DNA of 64,000 bases, taken from positions 2,733,501 to 2,797,500 of the forward strand of contig WAEK01000004.1 of NCBI GenBank assembly GCA_011634665.1, given 5' to 3'. Source of the DNA: Mortierella sp. BCC40632 (taxonomy: Eukaryota > Mortierellomycota > Mortierellomycetes > Mortierellales > Mortierellaceae). The notes under the pieces are model-generated. The model saw only the letters and a list, made by a program, of their open reading frames with translations. It made no database searches and had not been told where the DNA came from. Below are positions 32,137-45,600 of this stretch, one piece after another. Positions within the stretch are counted from its first letter, which is position 1. The number at the start of each line of letters is the position of its first letter. The position numbers and the translations under genes are program-made.

Positions 32137-34628
32137 TTACCACTTGCCCTTGCCCTTGCCCTTCTTCTTCTTGTTGGCATTCGAAGATCCACCCGAAGCC
32201 TTGGGCTTGGCTGTCTCTACCTTGGCAGGCTGCTCAACTACAACCGGTGCAGGAACAGGAGCAGCAGCTGGCTTCAAATGCTCACGTCCAGCAATTCTGG
32301 CCGAACCAGTGCCACCAATGCCACCACCCTCAAGGTTCATTCCTTGACTACCCTTGGCCATATCCTTTCGAGAACCAGCACCCGCCTTACGAGTACGGGC
32401 CAATCTCGCTGCAGCTCGGTCGCGGAGAGGCAACCATCTCTCTGGATCAGGTGTATAAGGCGCAGTCGCATCAAGGCTCTTTGGCAAACGAGGCTTTCTC
32501 TTGTTGGGCTTCTTGGCTCCTGACCGACGAGGGCGCGAACCAGGTCCACGACGGCGACCAAGACCAAGCCCCAATCCTGAGACGGGTTCAGCAGACACAT
32601 ACTCGCGCTTCAATCCTGGCACCACCTTCTCCAACGCCTCGACATCTAGATCCATTCCATGTTGCATTTCAGGAAGAGCATCTCCATACTTTTCAGCCTC
32701 AGCAGGTGCAAAATAAGAGTAGGCCATGATCAAGCCCGCAATGCTGGCAGGATCAGAAGGATCAGCCTGAACCAATTCCTCATAATCCTTGGCAGCATCT
32801 CGGTAACGATGCGATCGCAACTTGAAGGCAGCGGTTTGACGCAAGAGTGCCAGAGGCATGGTCTTGGGAGCACCCTTGACCTGATTTTGTTTCGCCCAAA
32901 TGGCACTCGATTCACTCAACAGCTCAACACCCTTCTCACCCTGACCAGCTTGATCATAAAGCCAGACCAACAGAGCCACGAATCCTGGCTGATGTCTTTC
33001 AGACTCGGGCAAGTGAGACAAGAACTTGGTCAGGGACTCGATAGCTGCCGTGTAATCACGAGCACCATCCATAAGCATCAACTGAATAATCGCAAATTCG
33101 ATAGCCACGGATTGAGGTCTCTGCTTTGCATAATCCTGCAACTCTTCGATTGCCTTGGCAGTCTTCTTTTGGCTGAGAGTGATGGCAGCGAGGATCAAGT
33201 AAAGGGCATCATTGTCTGGGTGTGACTTGAGCAACTGGCGCGCGGAATCACGACAAGCTGCATACTTGCTCTGGTAAAGGTTCAACAAGAGCTCGTTCAT
33301 GGCAATTGTACGCTTCTGAGAATCAAAGAACTTGGCGCTCAAAGCCTTGGTCGAGGCCGATTTGATCTTCTTGGCCGAGTCAAAAATATCCTCATCTTTT
33401 TGAATGGCAACCAAGTTGTTAGCGGCGACAGCAGGAACGGTCACCTCCAAAGCCCTATTAAGAGAAAGAGAGAGAGAGAGAGAGAAAAAACGGATGAGTT
33501 TGTTTCTCCATTAGTAATCCAGGAAACGAATTAAAATAGTGGCTCTTGTAGAGAGAGAGAGAAAGAAGCATAACCATTCTCTATGATTGATGAAGGGTGA
33601 GCATACTTGGTTTTGAGGACCGATTGATAAATCTCACGAGCCTGGTCAGTACGTCCGAGCAACTGATAGACATATGCAGTCTGGACACGGATAATGGCGA
33701 GTTCCTGTTCGATCTCTTCCTCCTCATACTCCTGAAGAGTCTCCCGACAGATTTCTTTGGCTTCCTCGAGGAGCTTGAGTGCCTGAGTATAATCACCGGT
33801 CGAAATACGTGCGCATGCCGAGTTGAAAGACAACTCGTACGTGGTCTTGACCACATCCTCGACCTTCCACTAAGAGATCGTTAAAAAAGAAAAAGAAAAA
33901 AAATTCCAAAGATGTCATAGGTTAAAAATTACAAGTTCACAGAAACAAGTATAAAAAAAGATGTGATATAGGCCACGCGCTCAGGATCGATCAAGATTCT
34001 CTCTGTTGTTCAAAATACCTTGTCATCGAGAGGACGTCCCGCATAGAGAATGGCTGCCTTGCAGGCATTAAAGTTGGTCAGAATATCATTGTAGCCATCA
34101 TCGCCCTTGTTGGTATCCTTGAGCATTCCATGATACAACTCCAAGCAATCCTCATAGCGTTCCATGCGGTACAACATCTGAGCCTCGAGGTGTCGAAGAT
34201 CCCATCCGAGCTTTTGTCCTTGAGCAGCCAACTCCTCACGCTTGGTCTGGATCAAGCTCGATCCTTCCGAGAGTTGGTTGGTTCGGTAAAGGCAATAGGC
34301 CTTTTCAAAGATAAAAGCAGACTTGTCGGCACCTAGGTGTTGACGGCCAGTGAGGATTGATAGAGCGTCTGCATAACGCTCGAGGCGGATAAGAGTAATG
34401 GCTTTGCAGTGGAGAGCGTCCTTGTCCTTGGGGCCTTGAGCCAGGACTATTTGCGGATGAGATGAACACGGGTGTTAATGTTTACATTGAATCGAAGGAT
34501 CCCAGATGATGAGGCTAGATGAAAAGGCTCGTGAAATTACTCTTGTCGACGACATTCAAGGCTTTTTCGTATTCCTCTCGCTTGATGTGGCGCTCCAGGT
34601 CGCCATAGAGCACTTGAATGGTTGCCAT
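32137..34628 (-). CDS. SRP72: Signal recognition particle subunit SRP72
   Basis: Core subunit of the cytosolic ribonucleoprotein that targets secretory proteins to the ER. It binds SRP68 and 7S RNA. Exons 34541-34628, 34019-34446, 33607-33869 and 32137-33454 total 2097 nt, 698 aa, in phase. The N-terminal two thirds are TPR-like helical pairs (YEKALNVVDK, ERYADALSILTGRQ, ERYEDCLELYHGMLKD, ALKLLEEAKEICRETL). The RNA-binding motif KRKPRLPKSLDATAPYTPDP then PERWLPLRDR is the family signature, followed by a Lys-rich tail (NKKKKGKGKGKW). Its start codon is only about 220 bp from the 3' end of the Fanzor gene, so most of its promoter must lie in that gap or within transposon DNA. Confidence 0.96.
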
Positions 34629-34846
34629 CGTTCGATGCGTTTGTGGATGAAGGAGGACGTTCTTTAGTCGCCAGGGCAATAGACGCTCGACGGCCGCGCA
34701 TCGGACTACGATTACGTCACCGGATGGAGACGCGCTCGGCCTGCGCAGCAATCAAGATCTACTCAATAGTAGACAAAGGTGTTGACGAACACCCCAAGGT
34801 AAAAAAAAAATAAATGCTATCTAGCTATCAATCTGCATACTGCTTG
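34629..34846 (-). other. Gap between Fanzor stop and SRP72 start
   Basis: Short interval that serves as SRP72 promoter region and Fanzor 3' flank. It contains a CRE/ATF-like TTACGTCA (34712-34719), a GC-rich stretch (34681-34745) and an A-run near 34801. In TnpB/Fanzor loci the guide (omega) RNA is usually encoded at or just beyond the 3' end of the nuclease gene, so this is where one would look. I cannot prove an RNA fold by eye. The 12-mer GGACTACGATTA at 34703-34714 recurs inverted at 42536-42547. Confidence 0.4.
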
Positions 34847-36857
34847 TTACGTTGCCAACCCTTGCTCAGTTGCTGTTGTCTTGGAACTCGTGGTGTTGGA
34901 CGACTTTTTCTTGACATTGGTTGCCTTGTTCCGCTTGCTACTCTTCTCCTGATCGGCTTCGCCGATCTCCTTTGCCTGGCGCTTGCTACCACCACCTCCA
35001 CGACTGTCTGGAGTTGGGTCAGAGTCGCTGGATTTATCAAGCCATGGATAATTGCCTTCAGCATCTACAGGTTGCAAATACAGTGGTCGTTTTTGTTGTT
35101 CCACATGCCTCTTGAGGACGGTGCACATATTGTGTGCTGCCATTATGTCCCTGTGGAGGAACTTATGGCATCGATAACAGTACAGGCGTCTCATACTGCC
35201 CGCCTCACCGACAAATTGTTCGCATGTTGGGCACTTTTTTGAGGTATAAAACTCGTTAATTCCAACCAAGACATAGCCGAGCGCTCGAACCTATACCATT
35301 GAAAGAGGGGAGAGAGAGTCAATCCAACAGCTATCAGTAGCAGGATTGGAAAGAAATCACTGCAACTTACAATAAAATGTTACCTTCTGAACGAAAAATG
35401 CCTCGAATGATCCATGTAAGGATGTCAGTCGGGAAGTAGAGGTGAATTGGCCCATGCCAATGCCAATGACAACCTTGGCATTCTCTTTCCTCCTTTCGCC
35501 CAAAGAACCGCCAACCATGCGCAGTAGCGAGTCTGCAAGCTGACAAAACTCCTTCTTCCTTGCCCTTTTTGCCATCTGCGTGTACTTCTTGACTTTGAAT
35601 TGACGGCCATTGTAAAACGTGTCCAGGTGGTCTTTGTTCGCTTGTCGCTGCTGCACATGTGTGGAAAAGTCGGCATCTGGACCACACAGAGGAGTAAGCG
35701 ATGATTCGATCAAGCTAATCGAAAGGAGGTCAGACACCGTTGGACTGACACAAGAGGTGGAAGACTGAAGTGTCAATGAAGTCGTTGCGTCTGTGCTGAC
35801 GGTCGGTACAACTAATGACTCGGGTTTGGAGGGGGGGCGCGTCAGGCCGGCCGACTTTTGATTTTCAAGCCAGGTTCTGTGAGCGAGAGTTGGTCGCGCA
35901 ACGGCCTTTTGATTGGCTGCGAGATTGATGTACCGCTCACGGCCCTCCCGGCTGGCTATCTTCCTTCCCTTGCCGCTACCTCTCGGGCGCCGGCCCCGGC
36001 TGCCTCGTTTCTTTTTTTGCCGGTGTCGCCGTCGCTTACCGACTCGGATGGTCATACCCTCCGGGAGAATCGCACTCGCCCCTACCACAAAGGCCTGGCC
36101 CAGATCTATTCCTAGGTACGACACACTATCTGTTTCGCCTGGAGTGCACCCAAGCAAACGCTCGACATCAGCAGTCGACTTGAAGACATTATGCACCTCG
36201 GTGAGATGGTCGCTTGTGCCGGCTGTAGTTGAGAGGAGACGGTCGGGTAGAACCTCGGTCTTGTAACGCTTGAACTTGACCGAGTTGAGCTCACGTAATT
36301 TATATGCCAGCAACTGGAGGCTGTATCCATCAGTTTTTATGGAGCCACGCAGGAAATATCCCCTCTTTTCGTAAGCTGTTGGGTCAAATCCGTCTCGGCG
36401 AAGATCATTGATGTGGTCCCGGATGTCATCTGGATCAACAATCTTGACTGCGGCAGAGACACCGGCTTCCTTCTTCTCACGACCGCGAACACGATCACCA
36501 GTCAAAGTCTTGGGGTCCACAGGAGCTATGATGTGCTGGATGAACAGGCCTGGCGTCTGGTGTGGGATCCAGTCACGAGTCAGCTCTGTCTGAGTTAGAT
36601 CTCTCTGTCGGTCCTCAGATCCAATAATCCTCGCCAGGATGGGATGCAATGTTTTCCTCTTGTGTAGAAATGCGGCCAGCTCTAGCTCGGTAAACGTCAT
36701 GTATCCATGCTCTTCTGGCGACAGCGGTGAGAGTCGCCAAGGCCGGCCAGCCGTAGCATTTGCTCGTACAAAGATCTGGATCGCTGGCTCGTTAGAGGAC
36801 AAATCGATTGCTTGATTGTTTGGCAATCGGCCCTTTCTGATCATCATCATTTCGGAT
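34847..36857 (-). CDS. Fanzor (eukaryotic TnpB-like) nuclease module
   Basis: RNA-guided DNA endonuclease family, the eukaryotic relative of TnpB and Cas12. Exons 35384-36857 and 34847-35290 join as FFVQK then VRALGYVLVGINEFYTS, in phase; the intron is 93 nt. RuvC-I is VSYLGIDLGQAFVVGAS (Asp of GIDLG). The RuvC-II strand is KVVIGIGMGQF, without the acidic residue at the usual place. INEFYTSKKCP supplies a nearby Glu. The zinc ribbon is CPTC with a later CYRC pair. RuvC-III is LHRDIMAAHNMC (Asp of RD). An Arg/Lys-rich patch KRRRHRQKKKRGSRGRR lies after RuvC-I and could contact nucleic acid. The first exon can begin at ATG 36850 or be spliced from 36938, making it the C-terminal half of a fusion with the XPG-type nuclease. 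No stop or frameshift breaks the Fanzor half. Confidence 0.9.
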
Positions 36858-36937
36858 CTATTGTGACATATACAGAAAAACGATTATTTAACTTTGAATT
36901 GTTTGTCTCCATTTTGACAAAATTGGAAATAACTAAC

Positions 36938-39160
36938 ATTGACGGGCGTATTACCATTTCCAACAGCTTTTTCGTTCCTTGCCTATAGTGTCGCATGAGC
37001 TCTACCGAAAGCTGTGAAGCTACCGAACGGACCAACAGCGTTGGTGTGTACTCCTTGACATTCTGGATCATGACTGCGTTGGTGAGGTTCGATGTGTCTA
37101 AATGGCCCAACTCTTCCAGTCGATTAATGAAGGAGTTGACGACTGTTTTTTTTTTTTCTTAGTATCTGGCGGATTGCCGGATACTAAGATTTTCCTTTCA
37201 CGAGGCGGGTTGCCGGAGTACAGAAAGCTGATGAAAGAATGGAGAAAGCGCACATTAGATGGATCGTCTTCACCATCCCCTATAGAGCTGACGGGGTCGT
37301 CGTCAGCTATCTCCTTGGATGTTAGAGAAGGGCACAAGTTTCAAGGATCTCACGATCTTGTGGAGTGATGCTTGTCACTGGTGCCGCAGGTCGAGGGGCG
37401 CCAGGGTGTGGCCGAGGATAGAAAACAGACTCCAGATATAGACCAATCAAAATCTGACAGCGCCGTTTACAACTCCACGCAGCGCGGACAGCTCCACGGA
37501 TGCACTCGATGACTTCCTTGGCGGCCCCATCGTCATTGACGGCGGCATGAATACTAGGGGCCAGGCGGCCAAGATCCAGACATACGATTGGGTGCTCGAA
37601 CGATAGGGCGTTTAAAATTTGCTTACGCCCAAAGCTGTCATTCTCTTTGATCTCGGCTTTGATGTCCGCAGGCTTCGTTTTGTTGGGTTTTGGCGTATGT
37701 GTCCCCACCGACGGCTTCTCAGGTGCCTGCTTCCATGGCTTTAGTTGGTATTCTTTGGAGATCGCAGGGGCAGGATGTTCTTTCATAGGTTCATACCGGA
37801 CCTTGGGGCTGAATCTTGGTCGAAATTGATGGTTTTTGGCAGGATTCGGCTGGTCAGTCGTAAAAAAGATGTTAGCTTGCTCGGGTTCTGCTCCTCCGGT
37901 TCTCGACTGTTTATCACGCACCGCTCTGTTGACAGCAAATACGTAAGGTGTAGAAACATTGAGACGGTTAGTGTTCACTAGTAATCGTTTTGATTTGTAG
38001 CCAAGGCCTGTTAAATGCGAGGACGGGCGCCTGATACCTCTTGGCCACGCGTTCTTCATACGCTTTCTTCTTGGACGCCATAAACTCAACCAGGAATCGA
38101 TCCAACCGCTGGCATAGAGTAGCATACGAAGGTGATGGGCTGTTCGTAGCCGAAGAGGACGGAAAGGCTGTGTCTGATACTCTGTCCTGTTTCATCTCCA
38201 CGAAGACTTTGAGAGCATTGTTATAAGTCTCAACAGTCCAATCTCCGCACCCTTTGTCCGTGCGTCGCTTTACTTCTGGGCGAGTAAGGTACTGCTGGAC
38301 AATACTTCTCTCATCTAAAGACGGACGGTAGAGACAATATTAGCTGTCAGAGCACTAAGAACAAGTAGGTCAATATCAAAATCGCCTGCCTTCTTACCAC
38401 CTTCCAAAGACTTGATTATCTTGTAATTGGTCATAAGTCCAAGGTAGGGAATATTTGGGACGTAATCATTGCCGCTTAATACAGCAAGAGCGGTCATCTG
38501 GCTTGGAGACAATTCGAGTGCCTCGAGAAGGGCACCTTTCTCGTACGGGACAAAGCGGCGTGCTTTGTATGACCCGATAGGACGCCAAACAACGCGAATG
38601 GTCTTGTAAAACAGGAGATCACTATCGCAGGATACAACTGCATCTTGTGGTTGGCATTCTGCTGCGATGAGCGTGTCTGCCTCGGTTACGCACAACACGA
38701 TGTTATGGCCCTTATTGCTCATGTACTCTACAAAACCCGGCGCTGCTCCACGGCCAATAGAATGACTGACGCAGGAATTTGCGTGCGTTGCTTATATGGT
38801 GCTTGCGAATCCGAGCCTTTTTAACGAGACGTGATTCGAGGATTGAAATGGCAGCGGCAGCCCTCGATAGAGATTGTTGACGGTGTCGACGGCGACCGGC
38901 ATGAACATCCATCTTTTCTTGTGCCGGTTCACCATCAACATAGAAACGCAGCTGATCCTTGCTCCCCAGTCTTGTGAGCCACCATTCGAGCTTGGCATGT
39001 GCAGCATTTAAGTCTGTGGCGTTCTCAAATGATTTTTATCAGGACGTTGTGGGTCGAGCAGACATCAACGCGGATGACGCCGGTTGACGAGATTGTGTGT
39101 TGTGGGTTTGGAAAACCCCCCCTTCTTGCCTGGTAGTTGCCACGCGCGTTTCACGCCCAT
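36938..39160 (-). CDS. FEN1/XPG-type 5'-nuclease module upstream of Fanzor
   Basis: PIN-fold structure-specific nuclease module. Recognisable acidic motifs in order: GVIRVDV, RFYVDGEP, TEADTLIAAE, VVSCDSDLLFY and LSGNDYVPNIPYLG, matching the XPG-N and XPG-I metal-binding residues. After this come helical regions including SIVQQYLTRPEVKRR, then CLDLGRLAPSIHAAV and EYTPTLLVRSVASQL. Exons 38398 to about 38722, 38038-38314, 37354-37925, 37202-37306 and 36938-37142 splice in matching phase, and the last joins Fanzor exon 36857 through a GTTAGT..TAG intron of 80 nt. The part before 38722 is not clean: frame changes occur at a C7 run (39116-39122), near T5 (39033-39037) and at A4 (38732-38735). Start proposed at 39160 (MGVKRAW). 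The intron at 37926-38037 is the least certain. Confidence 0.72.
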
Positions 39161-39802
39161 GGCGGGGAGATGAGGTGAAGCAATCAAAATCAAACGCGAA
39201 ACAGAACGCGTTCTTAAAGAATATGTGGCTTAGATTGAAGCGGGAAGAGGAGGTTCTATACTGGTGCGACCTGCAGCCGGCATTGGGCTGTCATGGAAAG
39301 AAAGGAAATGCGGAGGAGAGGAATGCAATACCGGCATCTCTTCCCTGCATCAGTTCGGCAGAGAAAGGGCAGTGGATTCTATGAACATGTGGGTTGAGGT
39401 GGTACGTGCAATATTTTTTTCCTCTTTTCCGCTTTTTGCTCCCTCTCATCCTCCCCTTCTCTTCCGCAGTCTTATCTCCCTCAAACAGACACATACACAC
39501 GCGCCACTCCACATACACATCTACACTCACTCCTATCCGCTTGCCTGTCAATACCATCGCCAGCATTATTTTGGTTTTTGATGGCCTTTCCCCTCATCCC
39601 TGGCCCTCTGTCACGTTTCTGTGAGCCTACTGCAACAACTCCCCACAATCGGCTGCTCCAAAAATGTCTGGTCTCAAATGGAGGATGTACTTATCATCAT
39701 TGCTCACAACTACGACCCCAGAAACAACATCAAACCTCAACAATTTCATCAAACGACACTAGCACCAAGGAATTCACTTTTAAGATGCGACGAATTTCGT
39801 AG
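39161..39802. promoter_or_regulatory. Divergent spacer between nuclease-Fanzor and MULE genes
   Basis: About 0.64 kb between two head-to-head transposon genes, presumably holding both promoters. The plus-strand part (39415-39560) is pyrimidine-rich and leads into an open frame (39578-39799) whose end, KEFTFKMRRIS, is in frame with the MULE coding region and separated from it only by a TAG at 39800-39802. That frame may be the true N-terminus of the transposase. Confidence 0.5.
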
Positions 39803-42433
39803 ATGGTGGGCGGAAGAGCGGCAAACTGGTATGTGTGGGTTCATAGACCCAATCAGTACTCAACCTTCTATAATCAAAAGGACGATCCGAGCACTCCACT
39901 TCCATTTAAAACATCTGAACAAGTTGCAGGCACAAGGACCATGTACTCTTGGAGACTCACGTTTGCCTGCCGTCGCCACCGCAAGAAAAAAGATATCTCT
40001 CTCCCACGTGAATCAGTGGGTCAACGTTGCAGGGCACAGGTCTTCATGGCACAACCTGTTGGAGAGGAGGACAAGGTTGTGGTCAGGTACACATGGAGGC
40101 ACAATCATGATGATGATCGCGCACAACTGCCTCTTGGTCAAAATGAACGCAGCTGGGTTCGGCGTCTGGCGGAAAAGGGTTATGATTGGTATTCTCTGTC
40201 GAGCAGGCTCATCCCTGATGAGCAGAGCCTTCAAGCGGTAAGAGTGTTGGCTTTTGTCCTATTTCCTGAACAGTGTAGTTTTGTGTCTAATGTCTTCAAA
40301 CGTACCATGTAGATGGAGGACGCGGCCCATGATCACTCCAAAGGAATTGTTTCTGGCAACCTATTCATTGACCCTGGTTACATTCGACAAATTATCTCCA
40401 AGAGAAAAAGAATGGAATATCAGAAGGATAGGTGCGTTGCCAACAGCGTCAAACTGTGGTTCAAAGAAATCGAAAACAAGGGTGGCAAGACCATGTTCGT
40501 TGAGGATGCAGCACTGACAGGATTTGCGTATGGATGGTGCACGAGCTTTCAGCTGATGGTAAACTACAGATAGCATGCGTTCGAGCTTCTCAGTCATGCA
40601 TGTGCCAACTATCAATGTCTTTTAATATGTCCATGTAGGTCATGTCTGGAAACTCCAGCTGCTACTGTATGGATTCGACTCACAAGACTATAAGGGACAT
40701 TACACCGACCGAAGAGGGCAGCAATGTCCACGGCTCAGCATATTTGTTTACTCTACTTGTCAATGACAAAGATATCCATCAAGGAATCCCTGTCGCCTAC
40801 ATGGCGTGCAAGTCTGAATCTCGGTATGATTCCCATTTTATTTCTGTGCATCTGCATCGTTACCTGTGCCACATGTAATTAGATGGACTTGTATTTACAT
40901 TTGTGCTTTAAACCCATTAGCTATCCTATCATTCGGTGGCTGCAATGGCTAAAGAACGAATGTGTTCTGAAAACGGATTCATTCATGGTGGACTGTGCAG
41001 AAGCCGAGTCCCACGCCATCGGGGCTGTTTTCCCCGAGTCAAAGATCTATTATTGCGATTTCCATGTCGGACAGCTGTGGGAGAAACAGCTGTTCAAGTT
41101 CTCGGTAGGCATTTCTCTCTCTCTCTTCTCTTTGAACTGAAACTACAGAGTATTCTTAGACGTATACTCATATGTTGCACTCATTCGACAGGAAGGGCGG
41201 AAAAAACAGATGCGGCCACTTTTGAATGAGGTTCGCAGAGCCAGGTCACCCGAGTTACAGCAGACACTCTGGATTAGGTTCAAAGAGCTTTATTCAGCTG
41301 CATCGCCAGTGATTAATTACATCCAGAAGAACTGGTTCGACAAGAAGGGAAGGCTGGAGAGATGGGCATTTTTCCACAGAGAGGTAAGAGAGGTAAAGTG
41401 TATCTCAATTCCTTTCCACGTCGATCGTCATGATTATCACCAGTTAAATAATACACTCGTCTCATTTAATTAGGACGGGCAAGTTGTCACAACCAATAAT
41501 TGGATAGAGTCGTGGCATGCTCGTTTGAAGGGCTACCACCTTGATGGTGAACGGAATCTCCGCGTCGATCGAGTTGTTTATTTATTACAGGGCCGAGTCA
41601 ATAGAGAGTTTCGATTCGCATACTTCAAGACTAAGAGAGGCTTCCTGCCCATACCTTGGAGGAAAGAGGATAAGGTGAGGAAGCAGAAGGCAGACGAAGT
41701 TTCGTTCGACGAAGCACAGCGCAAGATCAGCTTCAACAAAGATCAACCCTGCAATGATGGACATCTACAAGTATGGTTTGATGACCATGAGGCAGTTGAT
41801 AACCATTCCGGATTCGTTTGCTCAGTCGAATGTCACTTATAATGGATTTTATCTATCTTTCTTCCGCTTCTCGGGTAGATTTTCATACATTCATTGGACC
41901 CCACCACTCCAGATAAACTTTACACTATTGTTGTAATTGCCAGATCCGGGCAGCTAGTCTCATGTTCATGCCGACTTTTTTTTTTTCAGGCGCAAGCCCC
42001 TTCCGTGCAAACACCTCTTTCTTGTCGAGCGTGTTTTTCACGACCTATGGCTCAGTCGCTTTCTTTCGCCTATGTCATCCGATAGCATAGACAAAGAAAA
42101 CGACAGTATCAACAGCAACAGCAGCATCAGCGGCATCAGCAGCATCAGCAGCATCAAAATGATTCACTCAGAGACCAGTTAGCCATACACAGCCCACTGG
42201 CCTACACCCAGCTCGAATACTTGAGAGCCACGGACGAAGAGGAAGAGAGATATCGACGGAAGGAGCAGAGGAAGAGGGTCTTTGAAGATGTAGAAAAGGA
42301 ACTCTTTAGCAATGGGTGTTCGATTGCCAAGTTGATAAACAAAAAGCCAAAAACCTGTAGCTTGGAGGACCTCCAGGCTGCAGTGAATTCCTCTAAAACT
42401 TTACTGCAACAACTTCAAGAGTGTAATAAATGA
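39803..42433 (+). mobile_element. MULE (Mutator-like) transposase gene
   Basis: Cut-and-paste DNA transposase. Exons placed: 39803-40237, 40313-40558, 40639-40823, 40921-41104, 41192-41383 and 41474-41770, with phases matching, then less certain exons to 42433. An N-terminal WRKY/GCM1-like DNA-binding region shows TWRHNHDDD. The catalytic core is CMDSTHKTI (first Asp), FMVDCAEAESHAIGAVFP (second Asp), CDFHVGQLWEKQ (C/H motif) and NNWIESWHARLKGY (Glu). A SWIM finger, CSC followed by CKHLFLVERVFHDLW, lies near 41960-42040. The C-terminal end is acidic/basic helical (EEERYRRKEQRKRVFEDV). Likely breaks: in-frame TAG at 39800-39802, a frame change near 41745-41755 and another near 42095-42110. I see no clear long TIR. 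Confidence 0.85.
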
Positions 42434-42481
42434 TATTTACTAAGAATAACAGACTAGTGATGGCAACCCTCCACTATCATG

Positions 42482-42600
42482 GCATCGTCAGGGCAATTGG
42501 GCAAATAAATCTGTTGCCCTTTTACCTTTTTTAGTTAATCGTAGTCCATTTTGCCCCCCCCAGACGCTCTAATTACGTCACAGAAAAAAGGGGGGAATCC
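42482..42600. other. Junction between MULE and Crypton genes
   Basis: Short convergent gap. It contains GGGCAA and TTGCCC half-sites (42491-42518), the 12-mer TAATCGTAGTCC (42536-42547, inverted copy at 34703-34714), an AGACGCTC (42562-42569, direct copy at 34681) and ATTACGTCAC (42572-42581, direct copy at 34711). These shared words make it a candidate right end of the Fanzor-MULE unit. Confidence 0.35.
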
Positions 42601-42623
42601 TAGGATGTGAAGTTTATGCGTGT

Positions 42624-45600
42624 TTATTCACAGCTGGTCAGACCAGGCTTTGGCTGCTCTGACTGCTCCTGCTCGTTCTCGTGCTGGTTACGTGCCCGAA
42701 CAATGTCCTTAACATACTTGTTCAAAGACGTATTAGACAGGATCTGCTCAGTTTCTAGTAGAGCAGCCTCCTGTCTCTCCATCAATGTCCCTGGCTTATC
42801 CAGCATTCTTTCCAAGACTGAAAAGATGATATCCTTTTTGAACTTGTACCTCCGGGCCAACTCGTTCCCTTTCTTGCCTTGAACGGAGCGCCATTTGGTT
42901 CCTCGGTGTTTGTTTAGCCTCCAGATAGATGGTTGCTCCTTGAACCCAAAAAACCATTCTTGCCAATGCTCTCTGAGTGAACATTTTTGTGGGATCATTT
43001 CATAGATGTCATTTGAAACAACTCCATGCTTTGGTATCGCCAACTCTTCTTCAAGCTTCCGCAGCATATTGTCCATGGAACGCTGTGGTACTTGAGGTTC
43101 TTGTTGAGGTTCTTGTTGAGGTTCTGGCTGAGGTACATGTTGAGGCACTTGCTCTTGTTGAAGCTCTTGTTGAGGTTCCTGTTGAGCATCGGGTTCTTGT
43201 TCATAACTTTGACTCAACTCGGGTTCGTAAGCGCGCTGCCGTCTTCTCAGTAATGGCTCTTCCGGTCCCACTGACTCCTCTTGTTCTTCTGATGGCCTCT
43301 CCTGCCGCTCAATTGGTGATCGTGGATATAGATGTTGCTCACGTCCTAGTTCAAGCCGCTGCTGACTCAGGTTTCGTCCTTGTTGTTGTTCAAGCGGTAC
43401 GATCAAACTCTGCATTCGCTGTATTTCGTCTCCCAACCTCTGTACTTGAATATTCAGCTCATTTAGTTGCTCACTCTCATTTAAAGGCAGATAACTATCC
43501 AGATCTACAGTAGATCCGGAACGGAAGCCCCGTTTAGCATAGTTGCCGAAAAGTGTTGAAAGATCACTAAAAATCCTCGTAGTTATACGCTCCGTTTCAT
43601 CTATGACAACATTTGCTTGTGCTGCGTTGCTTTGCTGCGTGTCACGGTGTAGCTCTTGCCTCAAAACATACGAATTGCCATTAACTCGCTGTATTGAGTT
43701 TTCCGCCGTGTCCAAAGCCCGCTGGTTCGCCTCGCCCAAACTTGCCTGGATTGGCTGACAACTCTTTTCAAATCGGGTCCCAAATCCTCGCAGTTCATTG
43801 ACAATGGAAGGCGTATTAGCGAGAAGACTGTCTGAAGTAGGCGATATTGCGTTCGCTACTCTATCTTGAAATTCGGTGCGATACTTCCTGTATAACTCGC
43901 TCCTGAACACTGTATGATTGAAGATTCGGTGACGCCCATACTCTGCAAGATGGTCATGCTCTCTAATATCCATAAGAGCCGCTGCATCCTGAATGATTAC
44001 TTTCCGCAAGTGCGCCAAAAGCGACAAGATTGATATCAAGGGTTTAGATTCTTGATCCACCTTTAGTAATGTATGAGCTGGTCTCCCGTGCAGCAGGGGG
44101 TTATCCAGCATGATGTTATCCAAACGTTTCACCCAATCCGGATGATTGCCGAAATATTCTTCAATGAATGGAAACACCATCCTTTGAAGCTCAACAGGTG
44201 GGATACTGACATTTCTTGTGTACCATGGACGCTCGTTGGAGTTCTTGAACCCAGCCATTTTGAATGGTACAACACTAGGGGCCATTTCCAAATAGTACGA
44301 CATAAGGCGATTCATGTCCCAGTGAGCGTGTCGTTCAATGTCCTTGATATCACTGCCGGAATTATGGGCATGCCGTGCACCAGCGCCACGATAGTAATGA
44401 GTTGGATTGTTGGCTCTAACTCCCGCCACCTCTAACAGACGTGGTTGATCTTCATAGTGAGCAGAGCTGGATAACTCTTGTTTGATGCCGTCGTTACTTG
44501 CCCACAGATGTCGATCCTGCCAGTCTTCATAATTGTCAAAGTCGGGTGCTCTTCCTGAAACCTAAAGCCCCCAAGCCACAGCATTTTGACTTGAGTACAG
44601 CGTCCTCGTCGCATTCGTTTGTCGATGTTAAATGTCAGCTACATACCTGCCAGAGCTCAAACAGGTAGAAACCAAGGCTACCAATTGGACACATCTCGAC
44701 GTCCTTGTGTCGTATGACTGCCGTCATACACTCTTTGCCATCTTGGTTTGCTTTCCCTTGAAGCATTGTTAGAACTATGCCGAGCACGTATTGCCCTCCG
44801 TCCTGCTCGCATTTGTGTGCAAATGATACTGGTTGGATGTCAGGAAGCATGATCTTCCTCATATTTTCTCCGCGCGTCATCATGAAGAACGACCAGCTTG
44901 CAATGGCCCAATCTCGAAGACCAACAATTTTGCGACTACGCTGTCCTTTCGATATCAAGTAGTTGTGTCTCCAGCCTTGTTTCATCATTGCCTTGGTAGT
45001 ATTCACTTCTTCTCCTTGATCAACACAATGTGTCCTGAGTTTCATGGCCGTTTTCATTAGCCCAAGTCTGCGCTTGTAACCTTCCATAAGAGTACTTACG
45101 CCTTGTGATCTTGGGTGTGGTTCATTAGCCATGTCCAAGTCAGACTGACATTTCTGAAAGTTGTACAAATCACATGCGGCCTTGACGTACATATCGGCAG
45201 TTTCAAACGCAACAGGTTCAGCACCTGGATTGTATTCGTTCTCAACGTGGCTTGTCGCACCCTTTGTTCTCGGGTTAATACGCAAAGGCAGGACGGCATT
45301 GTGCGAGTGCGGGTTACCATCTGGCAAATATGCTTCTGTTGCTAGGTTCTCTTGCATATACAAAAAGAACTTGCGAGATCTGACAGTGAAATCGTTACCA
45401 TAGCCTTTGCGGAGGCACCAGCGCTACGGACAAAAAAAGTAATCGCTATTGTTAGTGACAAAACAAGACAGAGCTTGCTGCATATTATGATACCACAACT
45501 TTGTCTAAAATCGACATCCGCCATCTTTCTCGGAAGCTATACCTACTTTCCAATGATCTTGGTAGCGAGCATATGATTTTTGCGTACTCACAGCTAGTTG

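Follow-up and report, generated by a model that had tools for sequence, protein, structure and literature searches.

Fanzor1 genes have been reported in MuDR-type elements of the Mucorales, namely ROr-4, PBl-3 and MCi-4 (Bao and Jurka 2013, PMC3627910); in the passages of that paper which treat them, a MuDR transposase is absent from these elements, their duplications are 9 bp long, their inverted repeats are MuDR-like, and an XPG part is not mentioned. For SpuFz1 (Saito et al. 2023, PMC10432273), the sections consulted describe a C-terminal RuvC nuclease, a zinc ribbon and an RNA encoded between the stop codon and the right-end repeat. Here a mobile element of Mortierella sp. BCC40632 is described which was found in a stretch of 64,000 nucleotides (contig WAEK01000004.1, positions 2,733,501 to 2,797,500; hereafter the window) and which bears a gene whose relatives are predicted to join a FEN1/XPG-type nuclease, a middle region (MID) of about 300 aa without a name and a Fanzor-type nuclease (FZ) in one protein.

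The element resembles ROr-4, PBl-3 and MCi-4 in that a Fanzor lies within an element with a short target duplication in an early-diverging fungus, but it differs from them in its 8-bp duplications, in the fused XPG-type nuclease and in the transposase alongside, which is similar to those of Mutator-like elements (MULE-like). The Fanzor-type half shares with SpuFz1 the C-terminal RuvC nuclease, the zinc ribbon and an RNA, here a candidate, between stop codon and right end; SpuFz1 is much shorter and no XPG part is reported in the sections of PMC10432273 consulted, and no chain named Fanzor matched the profile built here. The XPG half resembles Rad2, XPG, FEN1 and EXO1 in its MG(V/I) start, its N and I regions, its seven acidic positions and a match to Rad2 (E = 2.8e-11), whereas the family described here is transposon-borne, fused to a Fanzor-type part, remote and mostly under the Pfam XPG_I cut-off. 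A protein of Umbelopsis ramanniana (P0115) is similar in its MID and FZ parts, zinc ribbon and repositioned glutamate, but at 791 aa it is a model without the XPG part. No paper joining 'Fanzor' with 'XPG' or 'Mortierella' was found among the open papers searched; a review mentions 'Fanzor' and 'FEN1' once each, and term searches in PMC3627910, PMC10711439, PMC10432273 and PMC11423790 returned neither XPG nor Mortierella. Within the scope of these open-paper searches, a fusion of a Fanzor-type with a FEN1/XPG-type nuclease therefore appears to be new.

The case for the fusion rests on the family and not on the copy in the window. The spliced window protein was used as query and 8,000 candidates were scored, which gave 36 proteins; every given name among these was a genus of Mortierellaceae. 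Proteins P0001-P0004 (Linnemannia, Gryganskiella, Podila and Actinomortierella; 1,185-1,327 aa, each a single model) were 51-57% identical over 99-100% of the window model, in line with the suggestion in an earlier, sequence-only reading of this DNA that similar long proteins occur in other Mortierella genomes. Searches with profiles of the XPG part and the Fanzor part brought the total to 163 homologous proteins, all of which were scored with three part profiles (XPG, MID and FZ) built from the first 36. It was observed that 35 carried XPG+MID+FZ, one XPG+FZ, 21 MID+FZ and 11 XPG+MID, with 60 FZ only and 35 XPG only; single-part proteins are expected because of the search length limits, and many of them were on short contigs. 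The two halves are thus not always separate genes, and the in-frame fusion proposed in the sequence-only reading holds at the level of the family. Only P0115 lay outside the Mortierellaceae among the named proteins of the 163. Distances in the XPG and FZ parts were correlated (r = 0.76, p = 1e-4, 16 proteins). One supported exception was P0009 (Linnemannia zychae), whose XPG half grouped with P0021 (100/99) and whose FZ half grouped with P0008 (98/93); this could be a swap of halves or a chimeric gene model and is kept as an observation. None of 53 transcript-like proteins examined (names lgn, ena and jgi) had two of the three parts, and in one scan for viral relatives 50 stretches fitted a pattern, none of which encoded a relative. 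As judged from these predicted proteins, an XPG-MID-Fanzor fusion conserved as a gene across the Mortierellaceae is well supported.

Nucleases of the Rad2/XPG/FEN1 kind have seven metal-binding acidic residues (FEN1 numbering). All seven, together with the MG(V/I) N-terminus, were found in the family, whose XPG profile aligns to Rad2. In a 23-protein alignment the XPG acidic positions were kept in 10/11, 12/12, 15/15, 16/16, 15/16, 16/16 and 18/19 of the proteins not gapped at the position, and the RuvC aspartates, counted in the same way, in 23/23 and 18/18; P0026, P0029 and P0006 each lacked one XPG acidic residue. After Rad2, the XPG profile matched chains of XPG, FEN1 and EXO1, and in these the acidic motifs fell in register. 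For Pfam XPG_I the window model scored 19.7 bits against a cut-off of 24.9, while P0108 was above it at 26.7; in the 1134-codon spliced protein of the sequence-only reading XPG_I was below cut-off (E = 0.0012) and Cas12f1-like_TNB (PF07282) was found with E = 4.6e-11. NCBIfam TnpB models likewise matched below cut-off.

Fanzors are defined by the pattern D-x(125,275)-[TS][TS]xx-C4 zinc finger-x(5,50)-RD (PMC3627910), which, written as a regular expression of our own, fitted the window model and 44 of the 46 proteins in which a zinc ribbon could be read. According to the parts of PMC10711439 consulted, their RuvC-II glutamate lies six residues ahead of the zinc finger and their RuvC-I is near exclusively DPG. 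The repositioned glutamate was present in the window and in 42/46 proteins with a readable zinc ribbon, and RuvC-I was read as DLG in 18 of the 46 proteins, DPG in seven, DAG in four and DMG in one (16 not read). Against the PDB, the Fanzor profile matched LaTranC (1.3e-4), Cas-phi and, weakly, TnpB; Cas12m was also matched. Both nuclease halves look catalytically complete from their residues, and the Fanzor half is probably an RNA-guided nuclease; the label Fanzor-type is used without a claim to strict membership because the DLG of RuvC-I departs from the near-exclusive DPG.

Within the genome of BCC40632, 103 matches to the Fanzor exon and 42 to the XPG exon were clustered to 59 and 39 loci, respectively. 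At 22 of the 39 XPG-like loci a same-strand Fanzor was found at a distance of 1.3-2.5 kb downstream; because this order and strand recurred where approximately 0.0024 were expected per locus, the co-occurrence is not due to chance. No downstream Fanzor was found by that criterion at the other 17, and 37 Fanzor loci were without an XPG match. Among eight XPG-only loci that were profiled, MID or Fanzor pieces were present in five, and such loci therefore look like truncated copies; weak XPG-only loci (approximately 27-29% identity) are probably XPG-family genes of the host. The XPG tail and MID were read in one uninterrupted open reading frame (ORF) in five ORFs at three places (C1, C7 and C17), in copies that have no intron at this position. 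For the listed pairs of diverged XPG exons, nonsynonymous differences (pN 0.32-0.36) were low compared to synonymous differences (pS 0.75-0.97), and in the C9 lineage the exons have open frames with the motifs kept. The dN/dS ratios of near-identical copies were not used as evidence, as these carry too few changes.

The sequence-only reading had joined seven segments of the window into one frame. As arithmetic this stands (1134 codons with the stop counted, 3402 nt in all, no internal stop and GT...AG at 6/6 gaps), but two of the gaps are not introns and one donor was misplaced, and in these places the model was rejected on homology to P0001 and on the sister copies C2, C7 and C11, which are 99% identical to the window copy over 4.7 kb. 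With regard to the supposed introns 37353-37307 and 37201-37143, C2 has stop-free homology to P0001 across both (37861-37280 and 37280-36952) and C11 across the second, and the window indels at 37342 and 37151 are private. For the intron that precedes the main Fanzor exon the best reading is 36954-36858, since the donor placed after 36938 compensates for 4 nt inserted privately at 36846-36849. Coding starts at 39160 and not at 38722 (MGVKRAW in the window, MGVKNAW in the aligned P0001). The YVDG motif cited in the sequence-only reading falls in this upstream part of the coding region, beyond the earlier 1134-codon model. RuvC-I (GIDLGQ), RuvC-III (HRD) and the C4 zinc ribbon were read in exons 4 and 5 as had been stated. 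The first exon of C2 is a stop-free match to P0001 1-267, but the same exon of the window copy passes through several frames because of private indels at 39122, 39028, 38751 and 38737. Together with 37342, 37151 and 36846-36849 these make seven private indels which break the frame, and the window copy as assembled encodes no intact fusion.

The carrier, its target duplication and the 3' RNA candidate are additions to the sequence-only reading. The carrier was delimited by comparison of copies with differing flanks, the right end being common to C2, C7 and C11 and the left end to C7, C11 and C2; later insertions of approximately 4.8 kb and 6 kb are present in C2 and C11, as judged from coordinates. 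Target duplications of 8 bp were found in the window (GAGCGTCT in minus-strand reading), C7, C11 and the B-type copy C3. MULE target duplications are approximately 8-11 bp long. As to terminal inverted repeats, GGACTACGATTA, 14 nt from either end, was all that was seen. A probe with the MULE-like pieces gave 78 matches in the genome at 28 loci, of which 13 were not beside an XPG locus. A MULE-like gene was found upstream within 9 kb at 15 of the 39 XPG loci (13 among the 22 XPG+Fanzor pairs) and was divergent in 15/15. The best explanation is that the element family belongs to the Mutator-like DNA transposons, here of the Mortierellaceae, and its transposase is called MULE-like.

Ten A- and B-type copies were inspected, with the left flank evaluable in six. 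A preference for a target sequence was apparent from these flanks: TGACGTAAT or TGACGTCAC stood two bases ahead of the duplication in the window, C7, C11 and C3. The left flank of C2 has TACGTCAT followed by an A-run, and that of C4 has TGACATAAT and no matching duplication; two B-type copies lie directly at an A-type end with the duplication in common (C2 and C15), and two copies were truncated. These stacked elements of different types in C2 and C15 comprise L002, L003, L013 and L101; at L021 (C11) an element lies against the end of another Fanzor locus.

Part of the lineages have a conserved and partly covarying structure in the interval from the Fanzor stop to the end of the element. Of 18 tails, seven were chosen for analysis, one per near-identical group and both of the D group; L015, L010, L018, L019, L020 and L028 were left out of the hairpin analysis. 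The seven tails run 89-136 nt from stop to motif, contain the hairpin and end in CGGTGACGTAAT (CGGTGACGTCAT in L008); the distance from motif to element end is 22-24 nt in elements of the A and B types. In the hairpin 93.8% of cells were paired; a covariation score of 0.469 and six cells changed on both sides were each reached by 0/500 shuffles, and 3/7 pairs changed on both sides by 28/500. Further pair types were no more frequent than in shuffles (353/500), and slid versions scored lower. The structure was derived from one of the seven sequences, which favours it; RNAalifold recovered 6/7 of its pairs. Folding z-scores of the seven tails were -1.31, -1.60, -3.26, -1.27, -1.42, -2.81 and -3.15. 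No Rfam family matched 34400-43000 at gathering score. The 158-nt tail is matched perfectly by the C15 copy; this was not taken as proof of selection, as the neighbouring last kilobase is 98-100% identical, which fits recombination.

Genome-wide, CGGTGACGTAAT has 49 sites compared to seven for the reversed control. Eighteen of these are situated 3' of a Fanzor locus, at most 1.2 kb away and on its strand, compared to none on the opposite strand and an expectation of 0.035. By position, motif and covariation the tail is a plausible candidate for a guide (omega) RNA, and we consider it reasonably likely that it is the guide by which the Fanzor half would find and cut DNA. The hairpin and CGGTGACGTAAT could instead be DNA signals, for example a site for the transposase or for a host bZIP factor that element ends and target sites have in common, with the Fanzor half not guided by the tail. 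The other 31 motif sites are far from Fanzor loci, TANNGCGYCCATTGTC follows directly behind the motif at seven of 40 distinct sites, none of them near a Fanzor locus (four exact, three with a single mismatch), and the flanking TGACGTAAT or TGACGTCAC of four copies would suit such a signal; however, all 18 nearby sites are on the Fanzor strand, the hairpin has compensatory changes and the position is like that of the SpuFz1 RNA, and we regard the DNA-signal explanation as rather unlikely. The longer box CGGTGACGTAATTANNGCGYCCATTGTC (e.g. L085, L088, L096 and L107), with four exact sites and three with one mismatch, none near Fanzor loci, was noted separately; it may be a host promoter element and a preferred insertion target.

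We propose that the element carries two genes head to head, for a MULE-like transposase and a long XPG-MID-Fanzor protein. The transposase would probably move the element and leave the 8-bp target duplications, while the Fanzor half, in the manner of known Fanzor loci, would cut DNA guided by an RNA that the 3' tail encodes. The XPG half would trim the break ends or cut where the displaced strand forms a flap or bubble junction, displaced strands and break ends having been suggested as substrates in the sequence-only reading too. Copying the element back could then mend breaks at empty sites, or fresh insertion junctions could be finished, and repair biased towards keeping or copying the element would favour its retention and spread. 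That an RNA-guided Fanzor-type half and an XPG half acting on flaps or ends help the element to persist or copy itself has, in our judgement, slightly better than an even chance of being correct. The narrower step, in which the same DNA would also be the substrate of the XPG half, with flap or bubble junctions cut or ends trimmed in favour of element retention and spread, is put forward tentatively.

Trimming of 5' flaps is a known activity of FEN1-type nucleases, and gaps and short flaps remain after cut-and-paste insertion. The XPG half might accordingly act away from guided breaks, trimming flaps or gaps left by the transposase at the element's own junctions or processing element RNA, with the Fanzor half a separate activity on the same chain. 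This fits general knowledge of these enzymes, and where a transposase was found the fusion was always with that kind of element and divergent from it; at 24 of the 39 XPG-like loci, however, no such transposase was found within 9 kb upstream, and we judge this alternative rather unlikely. A more elaborate possibility makes the fusion a self-contained RNA-guided homing machine, with an RNA at the 3' end of the element that carries the CGGTGACGTAAT box of promoter-like recurrent host sites. The Fanzor half would open or cut these host sites, the XPG half would shape the flap or bubble, and the divergent transposase would insert the element at a fixed distance. If true, this would account for elements stacked at one site with a common duplication; we consider it quite improbable.

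Several observations weigh against the proposed guided-nuclease fusion. The RuvC-I of the window is DLG, and no PDB chain named Fanzor was among the profile matches. PF10551 scored 22.4 bits in one transposase piece and 20.1 bits in the joined pieces against a cut-off of 27.6, and only one of its 36 matches in the genome, itself below cut-off, was beside an XPG-Fanzor locus. The exact motif was missing in 6/18 tails, L015 having a weaker form and L010, L018, L019, L020 and L028 none. Several near-identical pairs gave dN/dS of 0.7-1.4 on few changes. Mortierella claussenii has the parts in two models, one directly after the other: EDD11_009077 (XPG+MID) and EDD11_009078 (FZ), among the collected proteins P0135 and P0039. 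This would suit two adjacent element genes, XPG-like and Fanzor-type, which gene predictors have merged and whose proteins act apart or in a complex; every full-length fusion is a predicted model, and an intron separates MID and FZ in the copies read. Against this, 35 of the 163 models are fused, with full-length ones in several genera, one ORF spans the XPG tail and MID at three places, order and strand are constant at 22 loci, and the M. claussenii split lies between MID and FZ and not behind XPG; a merger of two genes is therefore very unlikely.

The frame of the window copy is broken, and every young copy has indels of its own, with C2, C7 and C11 broken at different positions. Between the four young copies (window, C2, C7 and C11; 34689-39400) there were 59 indel columns compared to 27 substitutions in 4,751 alignment columns, and for this reason assembly error in repeats is as possible an origin of the private indels as decay. 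A decayed family with no working member in this genome would explain the broken frames, but the excess of indels fits assembly error too, the C9 lineage is open with its motifs kept, pN is low against pS between lineages and intact proteins are present in other species; we regard such decay as highly doubtful. Coordinates of the element and its features are given in Table 1.

Table 1. Features of the element and its gene in the window (positions counted from the first base of the window).
Feature	Position	Strand	Details
Exon 1	39160-38398	-	XPG-like nuclease: MGVKRAW, D/YVDG/TEAD/SCDSD/GNDY; basis tblastn with P0001-P0003; frame broken here, open in sister copy C2
Exon 2	38314-38038	-	XPG-like part, tail
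Exon 3	37925-36955	-	MID, without Pfam name; private indels 37342 and 37151; donor ATG|GTAATA
Exon 4	36857-35384	-	Fanzor-type part with RuvC-I (GIDLGQ); private 4-nt insertion 36846-36849
Exon 5	35290-34847	-	Repositioned glutamate (NEFYTSKKC), C4 zinc ribbon, RuvC-III (HRD), stop
3' tail	34711-34846	-	From the stop of the Fanzor part to CGGTGACGTAAT; includes the covarying hairpin; candidate guide (omega) RNA
Motif to right end	34689-34710	-	22 nt, motif to right end of element
Mobile element	34689-42561		7,873 bp; minus-strand reading GGGGGGGGCAAAATGGACTACGATTA to ...GATGCGCGGCCGTC; ends common to other copies
Target duplication, right side	34681-34688	+	8 bp, AGACGCTC as read on the plus strand; identical 8 bp at 42562
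Target duplication, left side	42562-42569	+	8 bp, AGACGCTC as read on the plus strand; identical 8 bp at 34681
MULE-like transposase pieces	40313-41842	+	PF10551 E=1.7e-4 in 40883-41140, below cut-off; divergent from fusion gene; family-wide neighbour

Outside the element, pieces of a Crypton-type tyrosine recombinase (42627-45423, minus strand; NDC10_II 1.2e-8, GCR1_C 1.7e-7) adjoin its left end. This recombinase was rejected as the carrier, since its pieces start at 42627, beyond the end of the shared element at 42561. On the other side, an SRP72-like gene (34688-32137, minus strand; PF08492, SRP_TPR_like and TPR) has the element just upstream.

If both halves are active, the fusion would be a natural programmable nuclease with an attached structure-specific nuclease, which would alter the processing and repair of its breaks. 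The reason for the retention of Fanzors by eukaryotic transposons, a question of long standing, would then become open to experiment as well, since a single compact element, whose ends and target sites can be read, contains the transposase, the nuclease fusion and the candidate guide RNA.

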